Assembly (NCBI GenBank): GCA_019055375.1
Contig: JAHQIW010001423.1
Span: 496,001-560,000 of the forward strand
Direction of reading: 5' to 3'
DNA from: Parelaphostrongylus tenuis
Lineage: Eukaryota; Nematoda; Chromadorea; Rhabditida; Metastrongylidae
Length of the DNA stretch: 64,000 nucleotides
Numbering within the stretch: the first letter of the stretch is position 1; each line of letters begins with the position of its first letter. This document shows positions 14,401-62,599 of the stretch, piece after piece. A model generated the notes under the pieces. The model was given only the letters and a program-made list of their open reading frames with translations, was not told the origin of the DNA and made no database searches. The translations under genes and the position numbers were made by a program.

Positions 14401-14560
14401 AGTGTCCTAAATTCTACTCCTGTTATGCTCGCATTTTCTTATTAGATTACATTTTTGTGTGTATTCATTGATGGTTGGCCACTCTAGCTGTTTCTTTGAA
14501 TTTTGAACAGAGTAGTAAAGATCCTGCTAGTGTCTTTCCAAATGCTCGTGGTTTTATCTA
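11445..14560. other. no firm feature; possible lost 5' part of the channel gene
   Basis: No exon could be assigned in this 3.1 kb. The first transmembrane segment and first pore (TTIGYG-type) expected upstream of the exon at 14562 were not found. Two overlapping minus-strand frames at 13882-14097 are rich in hydrophobic residues but match nothing I know. Confidence 0.4.
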
Positions 14561-15054
14561 GGATTTGGCCTTGATCACTCCCCTAACTTGGAGTGGGCGG
14601 CTATTCCTTGTCATCTATGCTGTTGTCGGTATTCCACTTGCCCTTGTTACAATATCGGATATTGGTAAATTCCTCTGTGATGTCGCATTCAAATTTTTTG
14701 AAGAGGTTAGTTTAAGCTTTTATTGATTTCTGTGACTAGAATATGATACCCAATTATTTGCAGTCGACTGTCTCTTTCATGACAGTACTTCTCACACTAC
14801 TTTTACTGTAGACCAGTTTGTTGGAGGTGTTTGTATTCATTATGTTTCTCCGCTGTCACTACTTGACAGTATTTATTACTGCTGTATTACGATTCTGACC
14901 GTTGGCTTTGGTGATATTGAGTGAGTTCGTTTTCTTCTCAGTAGTAAAACTGTGATTTGATACTTCAGCATCGTCGTGACCTCTATAGGAGTCACACGAT
15001 GCAGGAATGGTCGCTTTCGGCTTCACACCAAAGTGTTTGAGCTCATAGTTAATT

Positions 15055-15349: not shown

Positions 15350-16850
15350 TATTGAAGAAAATTTCTACAATAACCATTTCACTTCCTACAAGGGGTTTCA
15401 TCGTCCCTTGATGAGATCCTAGTCTTTTGGAGTAGTCCATGATCCCTAATTGGTTGGGACTGTCTAGCCCGGAATAGGAGTGCTTCAGCCTTCTAGGGTC
15501 ATCACTTAGTTAGTCGCCGTACCTCCTTATCCCTTTAGGAACATAGTGCACAATTTCTGGTTACACACGCATACACGCCAGTTCGTGACGACTTATGAAG
15601 GTTGTTACTGTACCAGATGAGCAATGGCACTGTAGAACAAGATATAAAATAAAAACTTTCATATTACTATTTCAATAAATATCACTGAAGAGACTTTCAG
15701 AAGGTATTTCTAATAGGCAGAGCACTCATACTGCCAGATGATATTTGAAAAAAAAGTAACATCATTGCGGAAAAAAACATATTTCTTGCGGTTGTTGAAC
15801 ATTGTCTTCTTAAATATATGCTTCCGTCGTGCGAACTTCACATAGCACTTGGAATTTGTTGGTACTTATATATAAAAAAATAGACTTTAAAGGCTCATTG
15901 TTGTAGCGAAATGAAGGAATATCAATGAAAAAACTTCAGCGAAAAAATTCTTTAGTAGAAAAAAAGAAATCCCACACGTTTAAAAATTTTCACTTTCAGT
16001 ATAAAGGCCGCACAAATGGAAAACAACTCATTTCCAAATCTTACTGCCCTTTCCTCTGACAATATTGCAAAAGTGTGATTCAGAAAACACTTTTACAGCA
16101 TTCAGAGAGAAAACTTATTTGGAGATGGTTGTAATATGTAATTTAGGTGAACTTTCATGGAGTTATCGGTGATCAATTGGTGTCAAGTTTTTGGGAAAAA
16201 TTACATATTCTAGCTAACATCTTTCGTCATTTCACTGATCTTTTGAATCTTTCCCATATGCTAATTATTTCAATAATAGACTGCCCTTGTTTCGGAAAAT
16301 TCGTATATAAAGAGCTAAGTTAGCATATTTGGTTGATAATCAACTTTGATGTCGAACTTAATAGAAAGTTGATCTCTGGAACTTTGAAAATTAGTACTCC
16401 GTGTACTTTCATTAGCTTATTAGTAGATAATCAAAAGCTCAAAATTGGAGATTTAGTACCGGACTTGGTTTTTGGGAAATTCTTTCTAGTGCACTGCACC
16501 AAACGCTCTTTGTTCCCGTCCGAACCGCCAGCCTGCCAGAAAGGTTCTCGTCTCAAAGAGAATCATTGAAGGAAGATTTTCTGTTTCTACAGGACCGCTG
16601 TGATTGTCTACCGACGTATCGTCGAAATTTCAGCAGAATGAACTAACTCATAGAAACTGAAATTTGTACTAATGATCGAACCAAATGCATATGCTAGTTG
16701 ATATTGCAGCGCACACGCCGTATCTCTAATCCATTTTTCAAATTCGTACTGAGCAATAAACGGGTATAGAAACAGCGTTAGTAACCATACCGGCAGAATA
16801 AAAACATTTGCGTAGTTGACATGGGGCTCGAAACAATGATGCTGATACCT
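15350..16850. other. intron sequence of the channel relic; no other feature recognised
   Basis: AT-rich, with no repeat shared with the rest of the window and no supportable exon. A 78-codon frame at 16333-16569 has no family resemblance. Confidence 0.4.
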
Positions 16851-16939
16851 TTTTTTCGAGTGTTTTCTCAAGACCACGCTCAAATTTCAATAGATCTCTT
16901 CATTATTATTTGAGCCAACATGTCATGTGGTCTGGTAAT

Positions 16940-17002
16940 GGGCTCTTGTACAGCCCGATACACGTCTTTCGACCTTATAGTCTCGTCAGTCGGGCAGAAC
17001 CC
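16940..17002 (-). ncRNA. hammerhead ribozyme motif, left arm of copy 1
   Basis: Minus-strand order: GGGUUCU and GCCCGA (stem I 5' side), CUGACGA (core), GACU-AUAA-GGUC (stem II and loop), GAAA, GACGUGUA, then UCGGGC, bulge UGUACA and AGAGCCC (stem I 3' side). Stem I pairs 6 bp, then 7 bp (one G-U) beyond the bulge. Stem III (AGACGUGU) has one mismatch compared with the right arm. The predicted cut is after GUA, which obeys the NUH rule. Activity is not shown by sequence alone. Confidence 0.75.
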
Positions 17003-17032
17003 GTTGTCTTTCAGAACGTCTTTCAAGATGAA

Positions 17033-17095
17033 GGGCTCTGCCCGACTGACGAGATTGTAAGGTCGAAACACATGTATCGGGCTGTACAAGAGCCC
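17033..17095 (+). ncRNA. hammerhead ribozyme motif, right arm of copy 1
   Basis: GGGCTCT (17033-17039) pairs with AGAGCCC (17089-17095), and GCCCGA (17040-17045) with TCGGGC (17077-17082). A 6-nt bulge, TGTACA, lies on the 3' side. The core is CTGACGA (17046-17052), stem II GATT-GTAA-GGTC (17053-17064), then GAAA (17065-17068) and stem III ACA-CA-TGT (17068-17075). Predicted cleavage is after A17076 (GUA). All conserved core positions of a hammerhead are present and stem I totals 13 bp. Confidence 0.82.
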
Positions 17096-17845
17096 ACTAC
17101 CAGACCGCATGACATGTTGGCCCAAATAACAATGAAGAGATCTAATGATGATGATAGTTTCTTGACTTTGTTGAAGAGCACTGATTTATACTCTGCGGTC
17201 GCACAAAACCATGTATACATTGATTTGTATGTTCGTATGCAGGTTTTGTTCTGAACATTCAAAGAGCAAATAATTTTTAAGTTAGTGGCAGGTGCATAGG
17301 AGAAGTCAAAAGTCACTACCAAGAAGTTAAAAGTATTTAGAGTGAGAAAAATGGTGACTGTTATGTGCTCAGGGAGCTTACGTGGTAGGAACAATGCGAA
17401 AGCTCAAGTCGTGAAATTTTTACCACATTTATGGGAATTCAAACTGAGTAGACATTTTGGAAAAATTGTACATGTCATCCTTAAATATTTTTTCTCTCAT
17501 CCCAAAAATTTCATTAATTCCTTGAGGTTTTTCAGTCCACCTATTCCGATCCCGTGTCTTATACTGTTTATTTTTGTTGGCGTGACTTTAGTGACAATAT
17601 CAGGTGAGTATTGAATAATGCCCCTTTAAGATCTTTTAGGATTTGTAATTAAGGAGAATTCTGACAAATTCGACTAACTTCAAAGGGAGTTATAGTGACT
17701 TTGGATATGAGTAGCTCTCAGTGTAACTCTAACCTATAATAGAAAGTAGCGTCTATTTCAAATTCTGCTTATTGCTTAATTCATGTCTAACCGCAATGTA
17801 TGCAGTGAAACATGTGTAACTATAAGTTAATATATCATATTATGC

Positions 17846-18219
17846 GTTTTGAGTGTTTTCTTAAGACCACGGCTCAAATTTCAATATGCCAAAGAATCGT
17901 TTTTGAGCCCACGCATGTCATGTGGTCTGTTGAAGATGGGCTGACTTATAGAGCTCGATACACGTGTTTTGATCCACAATTTCATAATTTCATTTCTCTT
18001 GTCTTGATAATTTTACTGGACACAGAGTGTAAAACGTTCGTCGTCGCTTACTCTTAGTGTGGGGAAGGGGCACCCACAGAGATTAGCAAAAGACGAGAAT
18101 GAGTAACTGCCCGACTGACGAGATCGTAAGATCGAAACACGTGTATCGGGCTTTATAAGTCAGCACATCTTCAACAGACCACATAACATGCGTGGCTCAA
18201 AAATGACTCTTTGGCATAT
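17846..18219. mobile_element. hammerhead-bearing foldback element, copy 2
   Basis: Starts with GTTTTGAGTGTTTTCTTAAG and ends at TTGGCATAT. The arms pair left CCAAAGAATCGTTTTTGAGC and following blocks with the right-hand reverse copy (GGCTCAAAAATGACTCTTTGG). A middle region of roughly 110 bp, with GTGTGGGGAAGGGGCACCC, is shared with the 56.8 kb copy, so this is the longer subtype. The left arm's ribozyme core has been disrupted. The right arm keeps an intact core. Confidence 0.85.
18106..18160 (+). ncRNA. best-preserved hammerhead ribozyme motif (copy 2)
   Basis: ACT (18106-18108) and GCCCGA (18109-18114) form the 5' side of stem I; TCGGGC (18146-18151), bulge TTTATA and AGT (18158-18160) form the 3' side. 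CTGACGA is at 18115-18121. Stem II is GATC-GTAA-GATC, four Watson-Crick pairs capped by a GNRA loop. GAAA is at 18134-18137. Stem III is the self-complementary ACACGTGT at 18137-18144. The predicted cut follows A18145. The short palindromic stem III suggests that dimeric forms may be more active, as reported for other short-stem-III hammerheads. Confidence 0.85.
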
Positions 18220-23219: not shown

Positions 23220-23256
23220 AGTAGAATAAGAATAATAGTGATCAAAAATACCTCCA

Positions 23257-23530
23257 TTCGAGTGTTTTATTCAGACCACGCTCAAATTTCAATATAACTC
23301 ATGATTATTATTTGAGCCATCATGTCATGTGGTCTGTTAACGGGCTCTTGTATAGCCCGATACACGTGTTTCGAGCTTACAGTCTCGTCAATCGGGTAGA
23401 ACTCGTCGTCTTTTAGTCATTCCTCTGTGGGTGCTCCAGTCCCCACTTTAAGAGGTAGCAACACGGACGATTTACATTGTAAGTCAAGTGAGATTATCAC
23501 CGAACATAGAGTGTTGTACACTCGATTACA
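23257..23530. mobile_element. hammerhead-bearing foldback element, copy 3 (right arm missing)
   Basis: Begins TTCGAGTGTTTTATTCAGAC and continues with the left arm found in the other copies (TTATTTGAGCCATCATGTCA and CCCGATACACGTG). Middle sequence related to the long subtype follows (CCTCTGTGGGTGC reversed). No matching right arm was found, so the 3' boundary is approximate. Confidence 0.7.
23342..23404 (-). ncRNA. decayed hammerhead motif, copy 3
   Basis: The 63-nt span and overall layout equal copy 1. On the minus strand, stem I CCCGA/UCGGG, bulge UAUACA, outer stem GAGUUCU/AGAGCCC (one mismatch), GUAA loop and GAAA are kept. The core starts UUGACGA instead of CUGACGA, and stem II has one C-C mismatch. 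Loss of C3 should strongly reduce cleavage. Confidence 0.6.
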
Positions 23531-23559
23531 CCTTGGTTGGTAATTATGTGATATACTTT

Positions 23560-23819
23560 TTTTGAATGTTTTATTAAGACCACGTTCAATTACTATTTAA
23601 GTTACTATTACTACTATTTACTCCTGATTACTATTCAAGCCAACAAGTCATGTGGTCTGGTAATGGGCTTTTGTACAGACCGATACACGTGTTTTCGACC
23701 TTACAGTCTTGTCAGTCGGGTAGAACCCGACGTCTTCTAGCCATTATGACTTTTAGCCAGAGGTCCTAAACCATAAGATATATTGAAATTTGAGCGTGGT
23801 CTTAATACAACACTTGAAA
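23560..23819. mobile_element. hammerhead-bearing foldback element, copy 4
   Basis: The left end, TTGAATGTTTTATTAAGACC, has a reversed counterpart at 23781-23819 (ATATTGAAATTTGAGCGTGG and CTTAATACAACACTTGAAA). It is therefore the one copy with the outer terminal block at both ends. It holds a single ribozyme-like arm. It is only about 30 bp from copy 3. Confidence 0.75.
23665..23728 (-). ncRNA. decayed hammerhead motif, copy 4
   Basis: Minus-strand order is preserved: GGGUUCU, ACCCGA, CUGACAA, GACU-GUAA-GGUC, GAAAA, CACGUGUA, UCGGUC, bulge UGUACA. Two defects are visible: CUGACGA has become CUGACAA, and one extra A follows GAAA. It is probably inactive. Confidence 0.6.
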
Positions 23820-23829
23820 TAAAGGTATA

Positions 23830-45431: not shown

Positions 45432-45670
45432 TCTGATAAGGATATAACATTTTTTCAGCTGTTACGTCTAGGGCTATACAGGCGCCTATTTTGTCGATTT
45501 GGGACTCATCAGTAGCAGCTAAGCAATCCTTTATAAAGGAATCGACGCCGAGTAAAGAATATCACCGAAAGTCAGATATTGGGGGTGTTACTGATGAGTC
45601 TTAATAGGACGAAAGAGGCGTCTGTACAGCACTAGGCCTAACGGCTCAAAACATGTTTTATCCTTATCAG
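45432..45670. mobile_element. foldback element with hammerhead-like arms (family B)
   Basis: Two arms of about 85 bp, 45432-45516 and 45587-45670, are inverted copies: the tips CTGATAAGG and CCTTATCAG match exactly, and AGGCGCC/GGCGTCT and ACTCATCAGTA/TACTGATGAGT blocks follow. The spacer is about 70 bp. No coding capacity. Each arm holds a hammerhead-like core on opposite strands. Confidence 0.75.
45591..45622 (+). ncRNA. hammerhead-like motif, right arm of family B foldback
   Basis: CTGATGA (45591-45597), GTCT-TAATA-GGAC (stem II, 4 bp with one G-U), GAAA, then GAGGC and GTC at the cleavage position. CTGATGAGTC ... AATAGGACGAAA closely resembles the Schistosoma satellite hammerhead as I recall it. 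Stem III is weak (only the A-U pair next to the core) and stem I pairs only partly. The left arm (minus, about 45512-45481) has AAAA for GAAA and GCC for GUC. Confidence 0.6.
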
Positions 45671-45674
45671 ATTA

Positions 45675-46745
45675 TATGATTTTGAGAGGGTCTGTAAGAG
45701 AGTGGTCGAAAGGAGAGGTATAAAGCTCTGAATTACCCATGCGAAACTACAACACGATGATGGTAACGTCTGCAGGCCGATAGCGACGACCATTATCACT
45801 AAAGTTTAGCGTGGTCGGTACCAAAAGGTTAAATCAACTTTAATATAACGAATAAAATAGATTTTTAGCAGCTGACGATAATTCTCCAGCCACTAGAGGA
45901 TCTAAAGCTTGATTCTGACAGACTTGTGGACGAATTTTTTTTCGCGCTTGCAGTCGTATACAAATCTTTGCATAGTATCCTTTCATTTCTGAATATGATA
46001 ATTTGAAAATCGCAGAGCAAGTAGTTTTTTCATGGTTTGGTTCAACCTACGAGGTTAATAGAAAAACTTTATTCGGCTAGCATTTAGACATCTTTGCTTT
46101 CCCAGCGCCCATGAAAATAATACTGCGCACAGTGCTACTTGGTAACGGATTCAAATTACCAAATCCATTACTACGCCACCAGCTATAAGCATGAATGATA
46201 GTTTGAGTTGATCGTTGTGTTAAGCAGCATGAAATCTCAAACAACGGAGGAAAAAAATTTCTAAATAAACAACGAAGATCGCGCTGCGTGCAGCGATCAA
46301 AAGCTGTTACCACGAGAAGAACGCGATTTTCGTTACTATTTAGAAATTTTATTCCGAAAAATCTTCAGATTTCTTGACTTCCTGGCGCAAAATTTCTCCT
46401 ACCTGGTCATAAGCTTTTGGTACCTATATCTCAGTATAAAATATATGACTTTTTTTGTTTTATAAATACCTATTCAAAAGCTAAACCGTTTCCAGATTCA
46501 TCATTTGTTAACCAATCGAATGAGTAGTGGAACCCTGAAAAAACCATCCACATAACCGATCAAAAACTGCGCTCCGAAGATGAGACGTAATCTTATTCTT
46601 GCTGCTTTGTAGCGTCTCATGTTAAAATGTGTGATAGGGACCCAAAAACAGTAATGAACTCACCTAGATTTGAGCTATAGAATAATTAACAAAAGTCCAG
46701 AGCAGAAGGTATATTATATTTCATACATTTGGGGCGTGTCAGTGT
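45675..46745. other. no recognised feature
   Basis: No repeat block or family-like frame seen; a 78-codon minus frame at 46077-46313 is unrecognised. Confidence 0.4.
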
Positions 46746-52155: not shown

Positions 52156-52385
52156 ATGGAACTATCTTGGGAAAAAATGCGACTTCTGCTCCACTTCCAC
52201 TAAAAAAAATGGTTGTCATCGGTTGTGAGGCTCATCGACAAATCTGTAAGGCGTATGGTGACGAGGTTCGCGATGTTCGTACAGCTCGTTTTTGGTTTAA
52301 GACATCCCGTAAAGAAGGTGACTTGTTGACTGACAAGTCAAGAGAGGGACGTCCATGAAAAGTCGATCGTCAAGCATACGTCAGA
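52156..52385 (+). mobile_element. mariner transposase N-terminal relic (same family as 8.9-9.4 kb)
   Basis: From an ATG at 52156, frame-shifted pieces read MELSWEKMRLLLHFH, then AHRQICKAYGDEVRDVRTAR and FWFKTSRKEGDLLTDKSREG with RP: the paired helix-turn-helix region and GRP linker of a mariner transposase. A TGA follows GRP directly, at the position where the 9 kb copy also has TGA. No catalytic domain or TIRs follow; the sequence is lost by about 52385. Confidence 0.75.
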
Positions 52386-52652
52386 TTTTTGCTATGCATT
52401 TTAAAAATATGAAAGAACTTTTTCATATCCTAATATAAAAAGCGGCGCTTTTTATGCCTTTAAAAAAAAAGGAAATTGCCCGCATAATTGCATCGTATAA
52501 TCATTTTGAACCCAGTTTCGCTCTGTTATAGAGACTTACTCGCTACAAAAGATCTATTCATTCTTGTGAATGCTCCAAATCAAATATTTCCAAATAATCT
52601 GGTAGATTGTTTTAAACCTTTCATCGAGTCCAGTATAGCACCAAGAGTGCTG

Positions 52653-52687
52653 GACGTACGCTTCGGCTTTCTAGGAAGTCTCATCAG
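52653..52687 (-). ncRNA. hammerhead-like motif, left arm of family C
   Basis: Minus strand: CUGAUGA, a GACUUCCUAGAAAGCC stem II with mismatches, GAAG (for GAAA), then CGUACGUC. This gives a 3-bp stem III and a GUC site. The fourth GAAA position is changed and stem I next to the core does not pair. The right arm (plus, 52719-52753) has CTGACGA, a 6-bp stem II and GAAA intact, but GCC at the cleavage site. Together they imply an intact ancestor. Confidence 0.55.
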
Positions 52688-52718
52688 TAAAGGGCGAGTA
52701 GCTGCAACGGATGTTCTA

Positions 52719-52753
52719 CTGACGAGACTTCCTAGGAAGCCGAAACGTACGCC
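52719..52753 (+). ncRNA. hammerhead-like motif, right arm of family C
   Basis: CTGACGA (52719-52725), stem II GACTTCC-TA-GGAAGCC with one mismatch, GAAA (52742-52745), then CGTACGCC. The residue that should pair next to the cleavage site is C instead of U, so this arm is probably inactive. Confidence 0.5.
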
Positions 52754-52859
52754 TACCACTCGAGGTGTTATATTAGACCTCACGAAAGGCCGGAAGCTTT
52801 CTACCAGACTATATTGAATTTTTGAGAGAAGTCTCTAGAAAGCCGATCAAAAGGTATTT

Positions 52860-53794: not shown

Positions 53795-54235
53795 ATAGAA
53801 ATATACATCTAAGAAAGCTGAGAGGTAGGCAAAACTTGACCTTAAGCGGAAGTTGAACCCGTGTTTCACCCATATAGGCGCGCGTGTTACCACTACATTA
53901 CCAAGACCATCACTTTGCGACCACTCTTTCTTCAACATAAACTATAGAAGCTGTCAGCAACCAACTCTTGATTGATTTGGTCTAGTGGGCACATACCGGC
54001 ATTGAAGCCAGTGAAGCAATCATTTTCTATATGTGTAACCGAAATTTCTCTGATTTTACTGCTCTCTAACGGGAAAAGCAGAAAGAGTGGTCGCAAAGAA
54101 GTAATTTTGATGGTGTAGTGGTAGCATGCGTTCCTTGTATGGGTGAAACACGGGTTCAACTATTGCCTGTGGTCGGACTTTTGCGTATCACTCAGTCTTC
54201 TTGGGTGTATATCTCAACATCTCCCCACAACTAAT
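53795..54235. mobile_element. tRNA-like foldback element, copy 3
   Basis: The minus arm (from about 53915 down) and plus arm (from about 54106 up) both read as a tRNA-like head: TGTAGTGGTAACACGC and GGTGTAGTGGTAGCATGC, then GGGTGAAACACGGGTTCAAC in both, identical over 20 bases and including the B box GGTTCAA. A perfect 19-bp inverted repeat (53913-53931 with 54080-54098, CTTTGCGACCACTCTTTCT) lies inside the heads. The spacer is about 150 bp. No functional tRNA cloverleaf was found. Confidence 0.7.
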
Positions 54236-54239
54236 AAAC

Positions 54240-56765
54240 ATTATATTCCAAGAAATCTGAGTTATTTATATCAGAAACTTTTAATTTTAGGCTACAGTGA
54301 TGAATGAGAAGAAGATAATGTTTGAATTTGGACAATACAAAAATTTCCTGAACCGAATGAGAATATTCTGTCTATGTTTTACGCAACATGAAAAATTGCC
54401 GGCTAAATCAATATTTAATAATTGATATGGGCACTAATAACCAGTTGGCAATTTAAAATCGCTATATTAAATTCTTTATTTACCATTGCCACGAAAGTCT
54501 ATCGTAACAGATGATAGAAGAAAAACGTTTTAAGTGGTAATTAGATAACTTATCAACAATTTAAATGACATAATAAAAGGGAAATACTTAATTTCAGGTA
54601 AAAAGTAATATCCTGGTTGAATGTCAGCAATCTACTGTTACTGAAGTGCTGAGTTTTACTGCTGATAACAAGGCACTGTGAAGTCGATTCTTTTCAACAA
54701 ATGGCGGCAAAAACTTGCTTTAGCTGACCATAAAAGGAAGGAAAAGACTCAATCAAAAAGAAATAGAAATTTCGCAGAGAGTATTTAGAATCATTATAGT
54801 TAAGTCTAAGAAGAAATTCTCTAGTGGACACAAAAGCCATTGGAATTTGGACACTACAGCGAATAATAAGTATAGTTTTTTTTTTGGTAGAGCGTAATAG
54901 TGAAGTCCTTAAAGGATTATTTTTGTTCGGAAAAGACAACGGTTTACTGATTGCTTTGTGGTGACGTTCGCTGAAGACTGGAAAGAAAATGGGATATGAA
55001 GCCTATTTGACAACCGACGACGTTCATTGCAGCGGCTTGAGTGAGACAACACTTTGTTTTCATTTCTCTTTTTTCATTTTTTTTTCTGCTTTCAAACATT
55101 TTCTGATGTTGGATTTGCACCAATGAAAGGCTACAATGATCTTTTGGTGGTCCATATATGGAACGACTTATCACAACTTTGCGAATTTTGACAAAACTGT
55201 GACAGGCAAGTATTGCTAGAAAGCGGGAAACATTAACTACTGCATACCTGTCCAATGTCAATGAGTGTGGTAGTCAGCAAGTAAGACCTATTCCTCCTGC
55301 GCGCTAAAGCTGACCACAAATCACTTATTACTGCCATTACAAAAGTTGAACGCGCTGGGCTGGAGGACTCTGCCATGCTTATTATTCCAAGATACGTTTC
55401 TCCAATCGCCTAATACCTTTTCGAGATTTTCCGTTTTATGATGAGCTTAACCAATCAACTCAGGGCTCAAATGTTAATGTGATCTTAGTAGTGAGAAAAT
55501 AGTTATAGGAATTGCAGTCGCAACGCGGATCGCTGTCAACCTGATGAATTTGAGTTACAGTATCACAATACCGAACTCCCAGTTGAATGCGACCGACAGT
55601 TTTCTGTTGCGGTGACCTGTGGAACGTCAAACTGAATATCTCGAATTTCTAAAAAATCACAAGTGATCGGGATTCAGCACGTCAATAAGAAAGGAAGGAG
55701 GATAAGTTGCTTTTGAAGTCACAGATAAAGTTGGCCCATGTTTTTGATAACGGGTGCAAAATGGCAAAAGCTACAGAGTCATATTTTTGCTACCCGTTAG
55801 AACATCAAAAAATATTTAAGTATTGAATATCTCTGCCAGATAAACAGACAATTCTTCTTGAAAGATAATGTGCAGTTAGTACAACCTTCCAACTTTTTCT
55901 ATCAACTCAGATGGGAGTGATGCTGCAAGCGAATAGTGGTGCCTCACTCCATAAGTCATTGAAAAAAGACCCTCTATTTATGACTTCTAATTTGATCAGA
56001 CGAAAGGAAAAAAAAGATTATAGGATTACGAGACATTGAAAATAAGAGAATGTTCACAAGCCTAAAGAAAGCAGAAATATGGTAGGGAATAAGAAAGTGA
56101 CAAAAAATAGAAAAATATGAAATGCAACAGAGAGAATGCAAAATTGTGGAAGGTCTGGAAAAAATAAGAGAAAGGAGAGCAAATGAAAAGAGTACAAAAA
56201 GCGAAAGCGAAAGTTTCGTGACTGCTAAGAGCATCATTGTTGCCGACAGAGAAGGTCGCGTTTATAGGAGCAGCATAACAATTATTTGCCACTAACACCA
56301 TTGCTTCATCCGTTTATGGACACGAAACAAAATTTGCGACTTCGTTCAAAGTATTGATGAGCTGGAAGAATGTTGTTTCGGATAATCTGCGGGCAAATGA
56401 ATACAAGCTGCTTTCGAATGAGTTAGAAATGAAATGAATCTCCTAATTCACCCAAACCTGGAATAGACTTATCATGGGATACCTTATGATATCTTTATTA
56501 TTTTGGTTAGACTTCTTTATGGTTTCGCGCATTAACTTACTCTCTTGTTTGTCGAAAGATCGTCTTCACAATTTGCACGTATCTCCGCCACAAAATCTTC
56601 AAATCTAATCAACTTGGATTATCTTGATTGCGTGAGTTTTTCCTGGTTTTTCATAAGGGCAGCATTTATAGCACTCTCATTAGATCGATTTCACGTGTTC
56701 CAAGGGGATTCGCCCCTTCGCAACTAAACATCTAACAAATGATTACTATACTTGGTATATCATAT
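54240..56765. other. no recognised feature
   Basis: Frames of 75-105 codons on the minus strand (54694-54939, 54944-55261, 55974-56301) are hydrophobic or Lys-rich without known motifs. Confidence 0.4.
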
Positions 56766-56770
56766 CTTTC

Positions 56771-57162
56771 GTTTCGAGTATTTTCTTGAGCCCACAGCTC
56801 AAATTTCAATATGCTACAGAATCATTTTGAGCCACGCATGTCGTGTGGTCTGTTAGAAAAGGGGTGACTTATGAGGCTTAGACTCGAAAGGAAAGAAATG
56901 ATATATTCAACTAGCCACGAGCAATCGAGTGGGCAAAACTCTGTGTTTGGTGATTATTTCACTGGACATAGAGTGCCAAAACGGTCGTCGCTAAGATTTA
57001 GTGTGGGAAGGGCACCCACAGAGAGTAGCAAAACACGAGAAAGGGTAACTGACCGACTGACGAGACTGTAAGGTCAATACACGTGTATCGGGCTCTATAA
57101 GTCAGCCCTTTTCTAACAGACCACACGACATGCGTGGCTCAAAAATGATTTTGTGGCATATT
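56771..57162. mobile_element. hammerhead-bearing foldback element, copy 5 (long subtype)
   Basis: Begins GTTTCGAGTATTTTCTTGAG and ends TGTGGCATATT, the same two ends as copy 2. The arms share GAGCCACGCATGTCGTGTGG and its reverse. The middle contains GGACATAGAGTGCCAAAACG and GAAGGGCACCCACAGAGAG, also found in copy 2. The short frame at 56871-57071 is part of the element. Confidence 0.85.
57048..57102 (+). ncRNA. decayed hammerhead motif, copy 5
   Basis: Stem I GACCGA/TCGGGC (one mismatch), CTGACGA, GACT-GTAA-GGTC and CACGTGTA are kept, but GAAA has become AATA. The essential G12 and A14 are lost, so no cleavage is expected. Confidence 0.65.
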
Positions 57163-61890: not shown

Positions 61891-62075
61891 TTTTGATAGT
61901 AGCAAACGTTAAAATTCTTGAAATTTCTTTGCTAAATCTTTTCTCAGATATTTCGATAATGAATAGTTTCTTCTGTTTAGCCGTTCCGAGGTGTTATTGA
62001 TGTTATTTATTGAATATTAGCGAAGCATACAGCAATACAGTCAGTAATGCAGCTTGAATACACAATATTCGAGGT

Positions 62076-62110
62076 GGCTAACGTTTCGGCGGGTCGCCTT
62101 CATCAGAGCC
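62076..62110 (-). ncRNA. hammerhead-like motif, left arm of family D
   Basis: Exact reverse complement of 62444-62478; see that entry for the structure. Confidence 0.5.
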
Positions 62111-62443
62111 TGGAAAGATCAAATTGATCCACAACTCACTAAGCCAAAAACCTCCATGACCCTAGCAGAAAACGTTAGAGATGTGTTTTGGATCGCATAG
62201 TAAAAGCTTCATTTTACCATACCTCAGGCTGATTTTTCCGGCCCGAGTGAGGCACAGCCCACTGATGCACTGACCTTAAGCTGCTTGTCTTCAATTAATA
62301 ATTGATAGACCCAAATATCAAAAAACGGTGAGTGTTTTAAAATGAAGCTTTTACTATGCGATCCAAAACACATCTCTAACGTTTTCTGCTAGGGTCATGG
62401 AGGTTTTTGGCTTAGTGAGTTGTGGATCAATTTGATCTTTCCA

Positions 62444-62478
62444 GGCTCTGATGAAGGCGACCCGCCGAAACGTTAGCC
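62444..62478 (+). ncRNA. hammerhead-like motif, right arm of family D
   Basis: GGCT (62444-62447) pairs with AGCC (62475-62478) as a 4-bp stem I. CTGATGA is at 62448-62454, then one extra A, GGCG-ACC-CGCC (4 bp), GAAA (62467-62470) and CGTT. Stem III is only AC/GU with no loop, so cleavage could occur only in a dimer, and the site would be GUU. The inserted A before stem II deviates from the hammerhead consensus. Confidence 0.5.
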
Positions 62479-62599
62479 ACCTCGAATATTGTGTATTCAA
62501 GCTGCATTACTGACTGTATTGTTGTATGCTTCGCTAATATTCAATAATAACATCAATAACACCTCGGAACGGCTAAACAGAAGAAACTATTCATTTATT

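Follow-up and report, generated by a model that had tools for sequence, protein, structure and literature searches.

Hammerhead ribozymes in one-tailed, head-to-head inverted repeats of the nematode Parelaphostrongylus tenuis, elements best placed beside metazoan retrozymes

Minimal hammerhead ribozymes were reportedly found in Penelope-like elements by Cervera and de la Pena in 2014, and long inverted repeats around a loop are a feature of Foldback and MITE DNA transposons. Among the features already known are a self-complementary helix III, minimal type I hammerheads that are dispersed, and retrozymes in tandem (PMC3088659, PMC7761336, PMC7229834). The metazoan non-LTR retrozymes (Cervera and de la Pena 2020, PMC7229834) have type I hammerheads in units of ~150-450 bp that occur as tandem copies, together with low GC, target-site duplications (TSDs) longer than 4 bp and no described LTRs, and reading round a circle has been proposed for retrozymes (PMC7229834, PMC7761336). 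Penelope-like elements combine a short or self-complementary helix III with a link to retroelements and occur as tandem or partial tandem copies with pseudo-LTRs (PMC11167929, PMC7761336), dimeric hammerheads with a palindromic helix III have been described (PMC3088659; newt satellite, PMC6155905), and the W-elements of Schistosoma mansoni are satellite-like and putatively mobile, with type I hammerheads in some families, TSDs, and internal inverted repeats around predicted miRNA and snoRNA parts (PMC8490949).

Here two families of hammerhead units, F1 and R45-type, are described from P. tenuis, starting from a stretch of 64,000 nucleotides (assembly GCA_019055375.1, contig JAHQIW010001423.1, positions 496,001 to 560,000), referred to below as the window. 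The units resemble the metazoan retrozymes in their type I hammerheads, unit length, tandem copies and low GC (0.39-0.46 for the window copies); the tandem copies fall within the ~150-450 bp arrangement of retrozymes, whereas the foldback copies are not tandem. They differ in that many adjacent copies form inverted dimers, head-to-head and with one 3' tail, where PMC7229834 describes tandem repeats and never uses the word "inverted" in its accessible main text. The nearest published likeness found is the W-elements, for which the accessible text of PMC8490949 describes neither an inverted dimer with a hammerhead in each arm nor a one-ended tail, and does not use "head-to-head" or "foldback". 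The short or self-complementary helix III and the link to retroelements are shared with Penelope-like elements, which are recognised by an ORF for reverse transcriptase plus GIY-YIG and by pseudo-LTRs; the units here are of ~300 nt and have no such ORF. Compared with Foldback and MITE transposons, the termini are mostly not symmetric and the TSD length is not fixed. Both F1 ACACGUGU and R45-type AUAGGCGCCUAU are self-complementary, a likeness to the dimeric hammerheads, so that two ribozymes could share helix III; since the units lie head-to-head, such a dimer would need tandem or separate RNAs. As they occur in tandem too, the F1 and R45-type units are best placed beside the metazoan retrozymes, rather than as a separate transposon. 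The preliminary description knew of no hammerheads in elements of a foldback type, and none in foldback or head-to-head elements were found in the open-access literature, with few subscription papers covered.

The elements and motifs of the window are as follows.

16848..17143, tail at the 3' end of the minus strand: F1 copy 1, a one-tailed foldback (inverted repeat of 124 nt, 90%)
16848..16892, minus: 3' tail of copy 1 (tail score 74, versus 13 at the other end)
16953..16995, minus: hammerhead 1L, core intact, stem III pair 2 a G-G mismatch; 69.1 bits with a model trained on 1L
17033..17095, plus: 1R with outer stem I and the 6-nt bulge (17083-17088)
17040..17082, plus: hammerhead 1R, core and stems intact, predicted cut after 17076
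17839..18216, minus: F1 copy 2, a foldback with its tail at the left (arms of 66 nt, 92%; tail score 71)
17954..18010, minus: degenerate left-arm hammerhead of copy 2 (17.4 bits, E 0.042)
18109..18151, plus: hammerhead 2R, core and stems intact, predicted cut after 18145; top descriptor score of the window, 43.5
23249..23829, minus: F1 element 3, two hammerhead units head-to-tail, 324 nt apart (BLAST of units)
23355..23397, minus: hammerhead 3a, C3 mutated to U
23678..23721, minus: hammerhead 3b, G8 mutated to A and one A inserted
45432..45716, plus: R45-type foldback, an inverted repeat with the tail at the right end (about 45672-45716)
45471..45518, minus: R45-type hammerhead of the left arm, G12 mutated; descriptor 32.0 (maximum of 60 shuffles 31.5)
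45585..45632, plus: R45-type hammerhead of the right arm; descriptor 35.5
52580..52855, plus: G52, a third foldback, with hammerhead-like cores at 52719 (plus) and 52687 (minus) and a tail-like right end
56759..57158, minus: F1 copy 4, aligning with copy 2 over its full length (76% over 413 nt), left-arm hammerhead lost
57051..57093, plus: hammerhead 4R, GAA core mutated (AAT); 68.2 bits
61750..61900, minus: F1 copy 5, a decayed sense arm and tail (tail score 56; hammerhead 11.5 bits, E 1.2)
61958..62595, no strand assigned: palindrome with arms of 210 and 50 nt (100%) and a 121-nt centre

The dispersed foldback family with hammerheads proposed in the preliminary description is borne out, with six clear F1 units in the window and more genome-wide. 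Its three motifs (1R, 1L and 2R) do have the CUGACGA, GAAA and GUA core boxes, all have stem I as GCCCGA/UCGGGC and between them show the three stem II pairings GAUU/GGUC, GACU/GGUC and GAUC/GAUC. A 6-nt bulge on the 3' side of stem I is confirmed, reading UGUACA in both arms of copy 1 and UUUAUA in copy 2, with outer pairing GGGCUCU/AGAGCCC beyond it in copy 1. The cuts predicted in 1R and 2R would leave new 5' ends at 17077 and 18146, the positions given before. The core C3U4G5A6-N-G8A9, G12A13A14, A15.1-U16.1 and H17 is complete in 1R and 2R, the only F1 units of the window in which every core box and stem is intact, and the motifs have three helices with stem I open, as type I hammerheads do. 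In the minimum free energy fold of the extended 1R region (-21.2) both parts of stem I form and stems II and III are not as drawn. The six units, in copies 1, 2, 3 (two units) and 4, score 64-72 bits with a model built from these same units, and further decayed F1 units are found in copies 2 and 5.

With a strict descriptor the window has 3 matches, versus 2 in 100 dinucleotide shuffles together. A graded one, written after the motifs had been seen, scores the first three motifs at 43.5, 39.5 and 39.0 against a maximum of 31.5 in 60 shuffles, which five window matches exceed. At descriptor scores of at least 24, nine of ten matches lie inside eight local inverted repeats that make up 4.4% of the window, a set that includes the tandem element 3; with element 3 excluded, seven of ten lie in foldbacks. 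Among six hand-registered window units (copy 5 being omitted as too decayed) two-sided changes affect 2 of 19 pairs, and the observed number of paired positions is attained in 55 of 2000 shuffles. Rfam microRNA matches on the foldbacks (mir-6131, mir-74 and others) were rejected, being expected of near-perfect hairpins.

That pairing is kept despite substitution had been argued from the first three motifs, which alone make a thin case with just one stem II pair truly two-sided; the claim gains from the genome copies. From the 481.5 Mb host assembly 109 F1 units (103 distinct) were aligned from 45 sources, namely the window and 44 of 60 F1 loci after overlapping or look-alike places had been dropped, the genome copies being the best 40 of 5345 and the best 40 of 5413 candidates and hence best matches, not a random sample. 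Standard pairs fill 90.7% of 1212 pair cells across the 103 units, and at most 49.6% when the structure is slid, in an alignment that was fitted to the hammerhead structure and so favours it. Two-sided changes occupy 29 cells versus 8.5 +/- 2.5 in shuffles, of which 0 of 500 were as high; they fall in stems I and II, stem III having one-sided changes only, and most are accounted for by stem II pair 2, which is A-U in 72 units and U-A in 16 and may represent a single inherited change. With the structure slid by +1 there are still 20 two-sided cells in 7 pairs, and two of five covariation measures lie within the shuffles (two-sided pairs, 6 vs 4.2, 75 of 500; further pair types, 44 of 500). Outer stem I does not co-vary: cognate flanks have no pairing advantage over swapped flanks, which equal them in 30 of 200 swaps, and therefore the genome-wide copies lend no support to the neat outer pairing seen in the window. 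The nine fixed core letters are kept in 58 of the 103 distinct units, with a mean consensus fraction of 0.93 for the CUGA.GA letters, 0.88 for G12 and 0.92 for A13A14; these are close to the 0.84-0.92 of stems and loops, which indicates that most copies are decaying.

It might be supposed that the core boxes are accidents of palindromic repeats, and indeed RNAalifold returned no consensus structure for the F1 alignment, and the window copies lie below the Rfam gathering scores, the best on F1 being 19.7 against 48.5 (HH_3) and the best in the window being HH_1 (RF00163) at 45585, with 23.9 bits (E 0.0013 for 331 nt x 4227 families) against a cut-off of 34 bits; element 3 has no Rfam hammerhead match. 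The preliminary description had regarded scores below threshold as grounds for rejection, and for the window copies this is literally the outcome. It is not fatal because the sister type exceeds the cut-off in the same genome, where Rfam Hammerhead_1 has at least 31 matches at E <= 0.001 and at least 20 above the cut-off among the best 74 of 119811 candidates, which were those scored, and none in 14 control genomes. Taken with the five descriptor matches beyond all shuffles and the two-sided changes in the genome copies, this makes an accidental origin exceedingly improbable.

In the loci read, the matches above the Rfam cut-off are R45-like, and the consensus of 22 Rfam-found loci, GTGCTA-CTGATGA-GTCCCCAATAGGAC-GAAA-TAGGCGCCTAT-A-TAGCAC, is of the R45 type. 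Inverted repeats contain 20 of 30 fetched Rfam loci and 7 have tandem copies, although some of these loci repeat each other. Among all loci fetched, L103-L105 and L039/L040/L046 are apparent duplicates, and L063/L064 are the two arms of one foldback. L110/L118 on contig C989 and L061/L062 on C821 look like mirror copies on the same contig, which suggests a large palindrome or an assembly artefact. Of 28 hammerheads taken from viral contigs as a control, none is located in an inverted repeat, whereas a tandem partner accompanies 4 (L008, L021, L027 and L028 on IMG/VR contigs, with pairs 150-455 nt apart). Pattern searches of IMG/VR and GTDB with the F1 and 62 kb cores gave 0 matches.

The 62 kb cores belong to the palindrome at 61958-62595, whose CTGATGA..GAAACGTT at 62448 (plus) and 62106 (minus) is a candidate minimal hammerhead only; it has no Rfam match, no descriptor match and no shared tail, and is the sole place in the window that resembles the Penelope-like motif, with CTGATGAAGGCGACCCGCCGAAACGTTAGCC in both arms, like the minimal hammerhead that starts Penelope-like ORFs plus one extra A. 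The third foldback, G52, has cores scoring 30.0 and 26.0, inside the shuffle range, and a tail score of 31 that 0 of 17936 background windows reach, with neither an Rfam hammerhead nor a flanking repeat (p 0.61). Some ~280 nt from it, at 52227-52301, lies a faint relic of the HTH of a mariner transposase (Pfam HTH_48, 22.6 bits, cut-off 24.1). An inverted repeat at 53876-54135 has arms that are tRNA-like by eye and no hammerhead-like match inside; ARAGORN finds no tRNA genes in the window. Exons of a two-pore-domain potassium channel lie at 14540-14935 on the plus strand (Pfam Ion_trans_2, E 1.2e-10), and in the frames scanned Pfam gives just this ion channel, the sub-threshold mariner HTH and a sub-threshold DUF3915.

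The usual order of the elements is an antisense hammerhead arm, a loop, a sense hammerhead arm and a tail of ~45 nt, so that in head-to-head pairs the sense strands point away from the loop. The preliminary description was right that the units are inverted, with the correction that F1 units occur in tandem too: besides element 3 (324 nt) there are four pairs at 278, 309, 318 and 319 nt, and three at 485 that are probably one duplicated locus, whilst 5 of 9 R45-type tandem pairs are spaced at 283-285 nt (range 227-687). Loci fetched with an F1 monomer query comprise 8 head-to-head, 5 tandem and 0 tail-to-tail pairs, and the Rfam-found loci 12, 9 and 4 respectively.

The tail, TTTGAGCG..GGTCT...AAAA..TCGA..GGTAT, lies 3' of the sense arm and is common to F1 and R45-type. 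Tails were scored pairwise against background windows; the R45-type foldback of the window scores 56 at its right end and 14 at its left, and 0.08% of background windows do as well as its tail. An F1-like tail at the 99% level is present in just 9 of 27 R45-type units, many others ending before the tail; several tail-less ones have nearly the same end point, following ...CCTTATC. The idea that the 3' end is A-rich and variable was considered and dropped, since many tails finish with ...GGTAT or a similar sequence. Of the 26 head-to-head pairs sampled outside the window, 21 carry the tail at a single end, as do both of the pairs scored inside it. Exactly one tail is found in 8 of 8 F1 pairs (7 independent), in 9 of 12 R45-type pairs (3 without any) and in 4 of 6 pairs from loci L030-L054, a set with a bias towards foldbacks because its query was itself a foldback, the other 2 having it at both ends.

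This anatomy bears on two other origins. A Foldback- or MITE-type DNA transposon that had acquired hammerheads would have inverted repeats, and tails at both ends in inverted orientation are found in element 3, whose hammerheads are nevertheless tandem and not inverted, as well as in the 2 pairs of the biased fetch just mentioned. The one-ended tail of most pairs, the variable TSD length in place of matching termini and a fixed duplication, the tandem copies of recurrent unit length, and the lack of any transposase found bar the unrelated mariner remnant all speak against such a transposon, to which we give very little credence. Nor does it seem at all probable that the pairs are by-products of two independent hammerhead-unit insertions that happen to adjoin in opposite orientation. 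Such neighbours could account for the 4 tail-to-tail pairs among 25 adjacent R45-type pairs and for the 3 R45-type head-to-head pairs with no tail, but not for the excess of head-to-head pairs, the mostly single tail per pair or the single TSD that encloses the whole pair in 11 of 20 cases.

These 11 TSDs, all longer than 4 bp as in retrozymes, lie at or above 95% of a swapped-flank null; nine are perfect over 10-13 nt, one is of 16 nt with a mismatch and one is longer and gapped, and in the other 9 of the 20 one-tailed foldbacks a clear TSD is absent. The test took in 20 of 23 one-tailed pairs, omitting L091 (at a locus edge) and two window pairs; an earlier test in which copies were placed by homology to copy 1 gave 7 of 17, two of which may be one duplicated locus. 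In the window the direct repeat flanking copy 1 is equalled by 0 of 500 random pairs, those of copies 2 and 4 have p 0.018 and p 0.002, and none was found for element 3 (p 0.56) or the R45-type foldback (p 0.60). The outer ends are stereotyped and the turnaround varies between loci, from about 1 to 226 nt upstream of the core, with loops of about 12-259 nt (18 of 19 loci). Turnarounds were placed by the best BLAST piece only, in 19 pairs with L118 omitted, L099 giving no match.

It could be that a foldback was founded once per subfamily and then retrotransposed as a ready-made inverted-dimer RNA hairpin. Stereotyped outer ends would be expected of this, and the match between copies 2 and 4 runs from end to end and takes in the loop. 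Between these two copies the left hammerhead (17951-18005) has 64% identity and 22 gap columns versus 83-88% elsewhere, the left one being eroded and the right one kept; the region is the sole strongly diverged stretch between them. Furthermore, an arm seldom has its partner in the locus as its nearest relative, identity within the locus beating the best match elsewhere in 2 of 13 F1 and 0 of 10 R45-type loci, and R45-type arms cluster weakly by class (0.904 between loci for arms of the same class vs 0.893 for different classes; 0 of 2000 swaps as high). A single founder per subfamily is at odds with the wide variation of turnaround points and loop lengths, with the lack of an arm-class effect in F1 (1520 of 2000 label swaps as high) and with F1 arm identity that averages 0.904 within a locus and 0.85 between loci, and we consider it unlikely, if still a serious contender. 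Some foldbacks do appear to have spread as ready-made units, as the R45-type arm-class effect and the match of copies 2 and 4 through the loop imply.

We lean instead, with modest assurance, towards F1 and R45-type being short non-coding retroelements of the metazoan-retrozyme kind that are often inserted as head-to-head inverted dimers, mostly arising during insertion. The inverted form probably comes from snap-back during target-primed reverse transcription. A unit of ~280-320 nt, comprising a type I hammerhead and the ~45-nt 3' tail, would be read by a common reverse transcriptase, presumably through that tail, with reverse transcription primed at the target and the RNA copied through the hammerhead. 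The nascent cDNA would fold back at a variable upstream point and be copied again up to the tail boundary, and the joining of its end to the target would leave a duplication of ~10-16 nt. Fixed outer ends, a variable turnaround and the class-blind identity of F1 arms are what repeated cDNA snap-back would be expected to produce. The hammerhead may cut multimeric RNA into monomers, circular monomers being the likely template, and tandem copies could come from reading round a circle, which the recurrent tandem spacing fits (283-285 nt in R45-type, 278-324 nt in F1). Counting against this reading are the distant kinship of arms within a locus, the R45-type arm-class effect, the 9 foldbacks that lack a clear TSD, the absence of co-variation in outer stem I, and the full-length alignment of copies 2 and 4, in both of which the intact or better hammerhead is carried by the tail-less strand. 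The reading frames scanned, which cover part of the window, yielded no reverse transcriptase.

In full-length folds the pairing probability of local stem I is <= 0.001 for all seven cores found. This near-zero pairing also tells against the main reading, but since the seven include 3b of the tandem element 3, foldbacks are not alone in burying their hammerheads. The conservation of pairing is most likely owed to RNA made from source or tandem units, and cutting would be expected from shorter, processed or partly eroded RNAs.

Hammerhead elements have been known as head-to-tail arrangements, and what is new here is the mirrored form, with a hammerhead in each arm and a tail at one end. The finding bears on how metazoan retrozymes return to DNA and by whose enzyme, for which PLEs/Terminons are called likely candidates in PMC7761336. 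The insertion step can be read from the precise TSDs, the varying turnaround and the tail that two families have in common, and this tail names the sequence to seek in an autonomous partner. A tentative and wider reading, which may well prove wrong, is that in one lineage of retrozymes tandem insertion has given way to snap-back, every hop leaving a one-tailed mirror copy with its own turnaround. If so, the genome would have been filled with hammerhead hairpins carrying a ribozyme on both strands, which would give long double-stranded RNAs when transcribed from either side and from which the ribozyme would be freed only by arm loss, RNA cutting or circular RNA; two families with different ribozyme sequences would share a tail, and hence one reverse transcriptase. 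The elements provide a natural supply of ribozymes inserted next to their own antisense.
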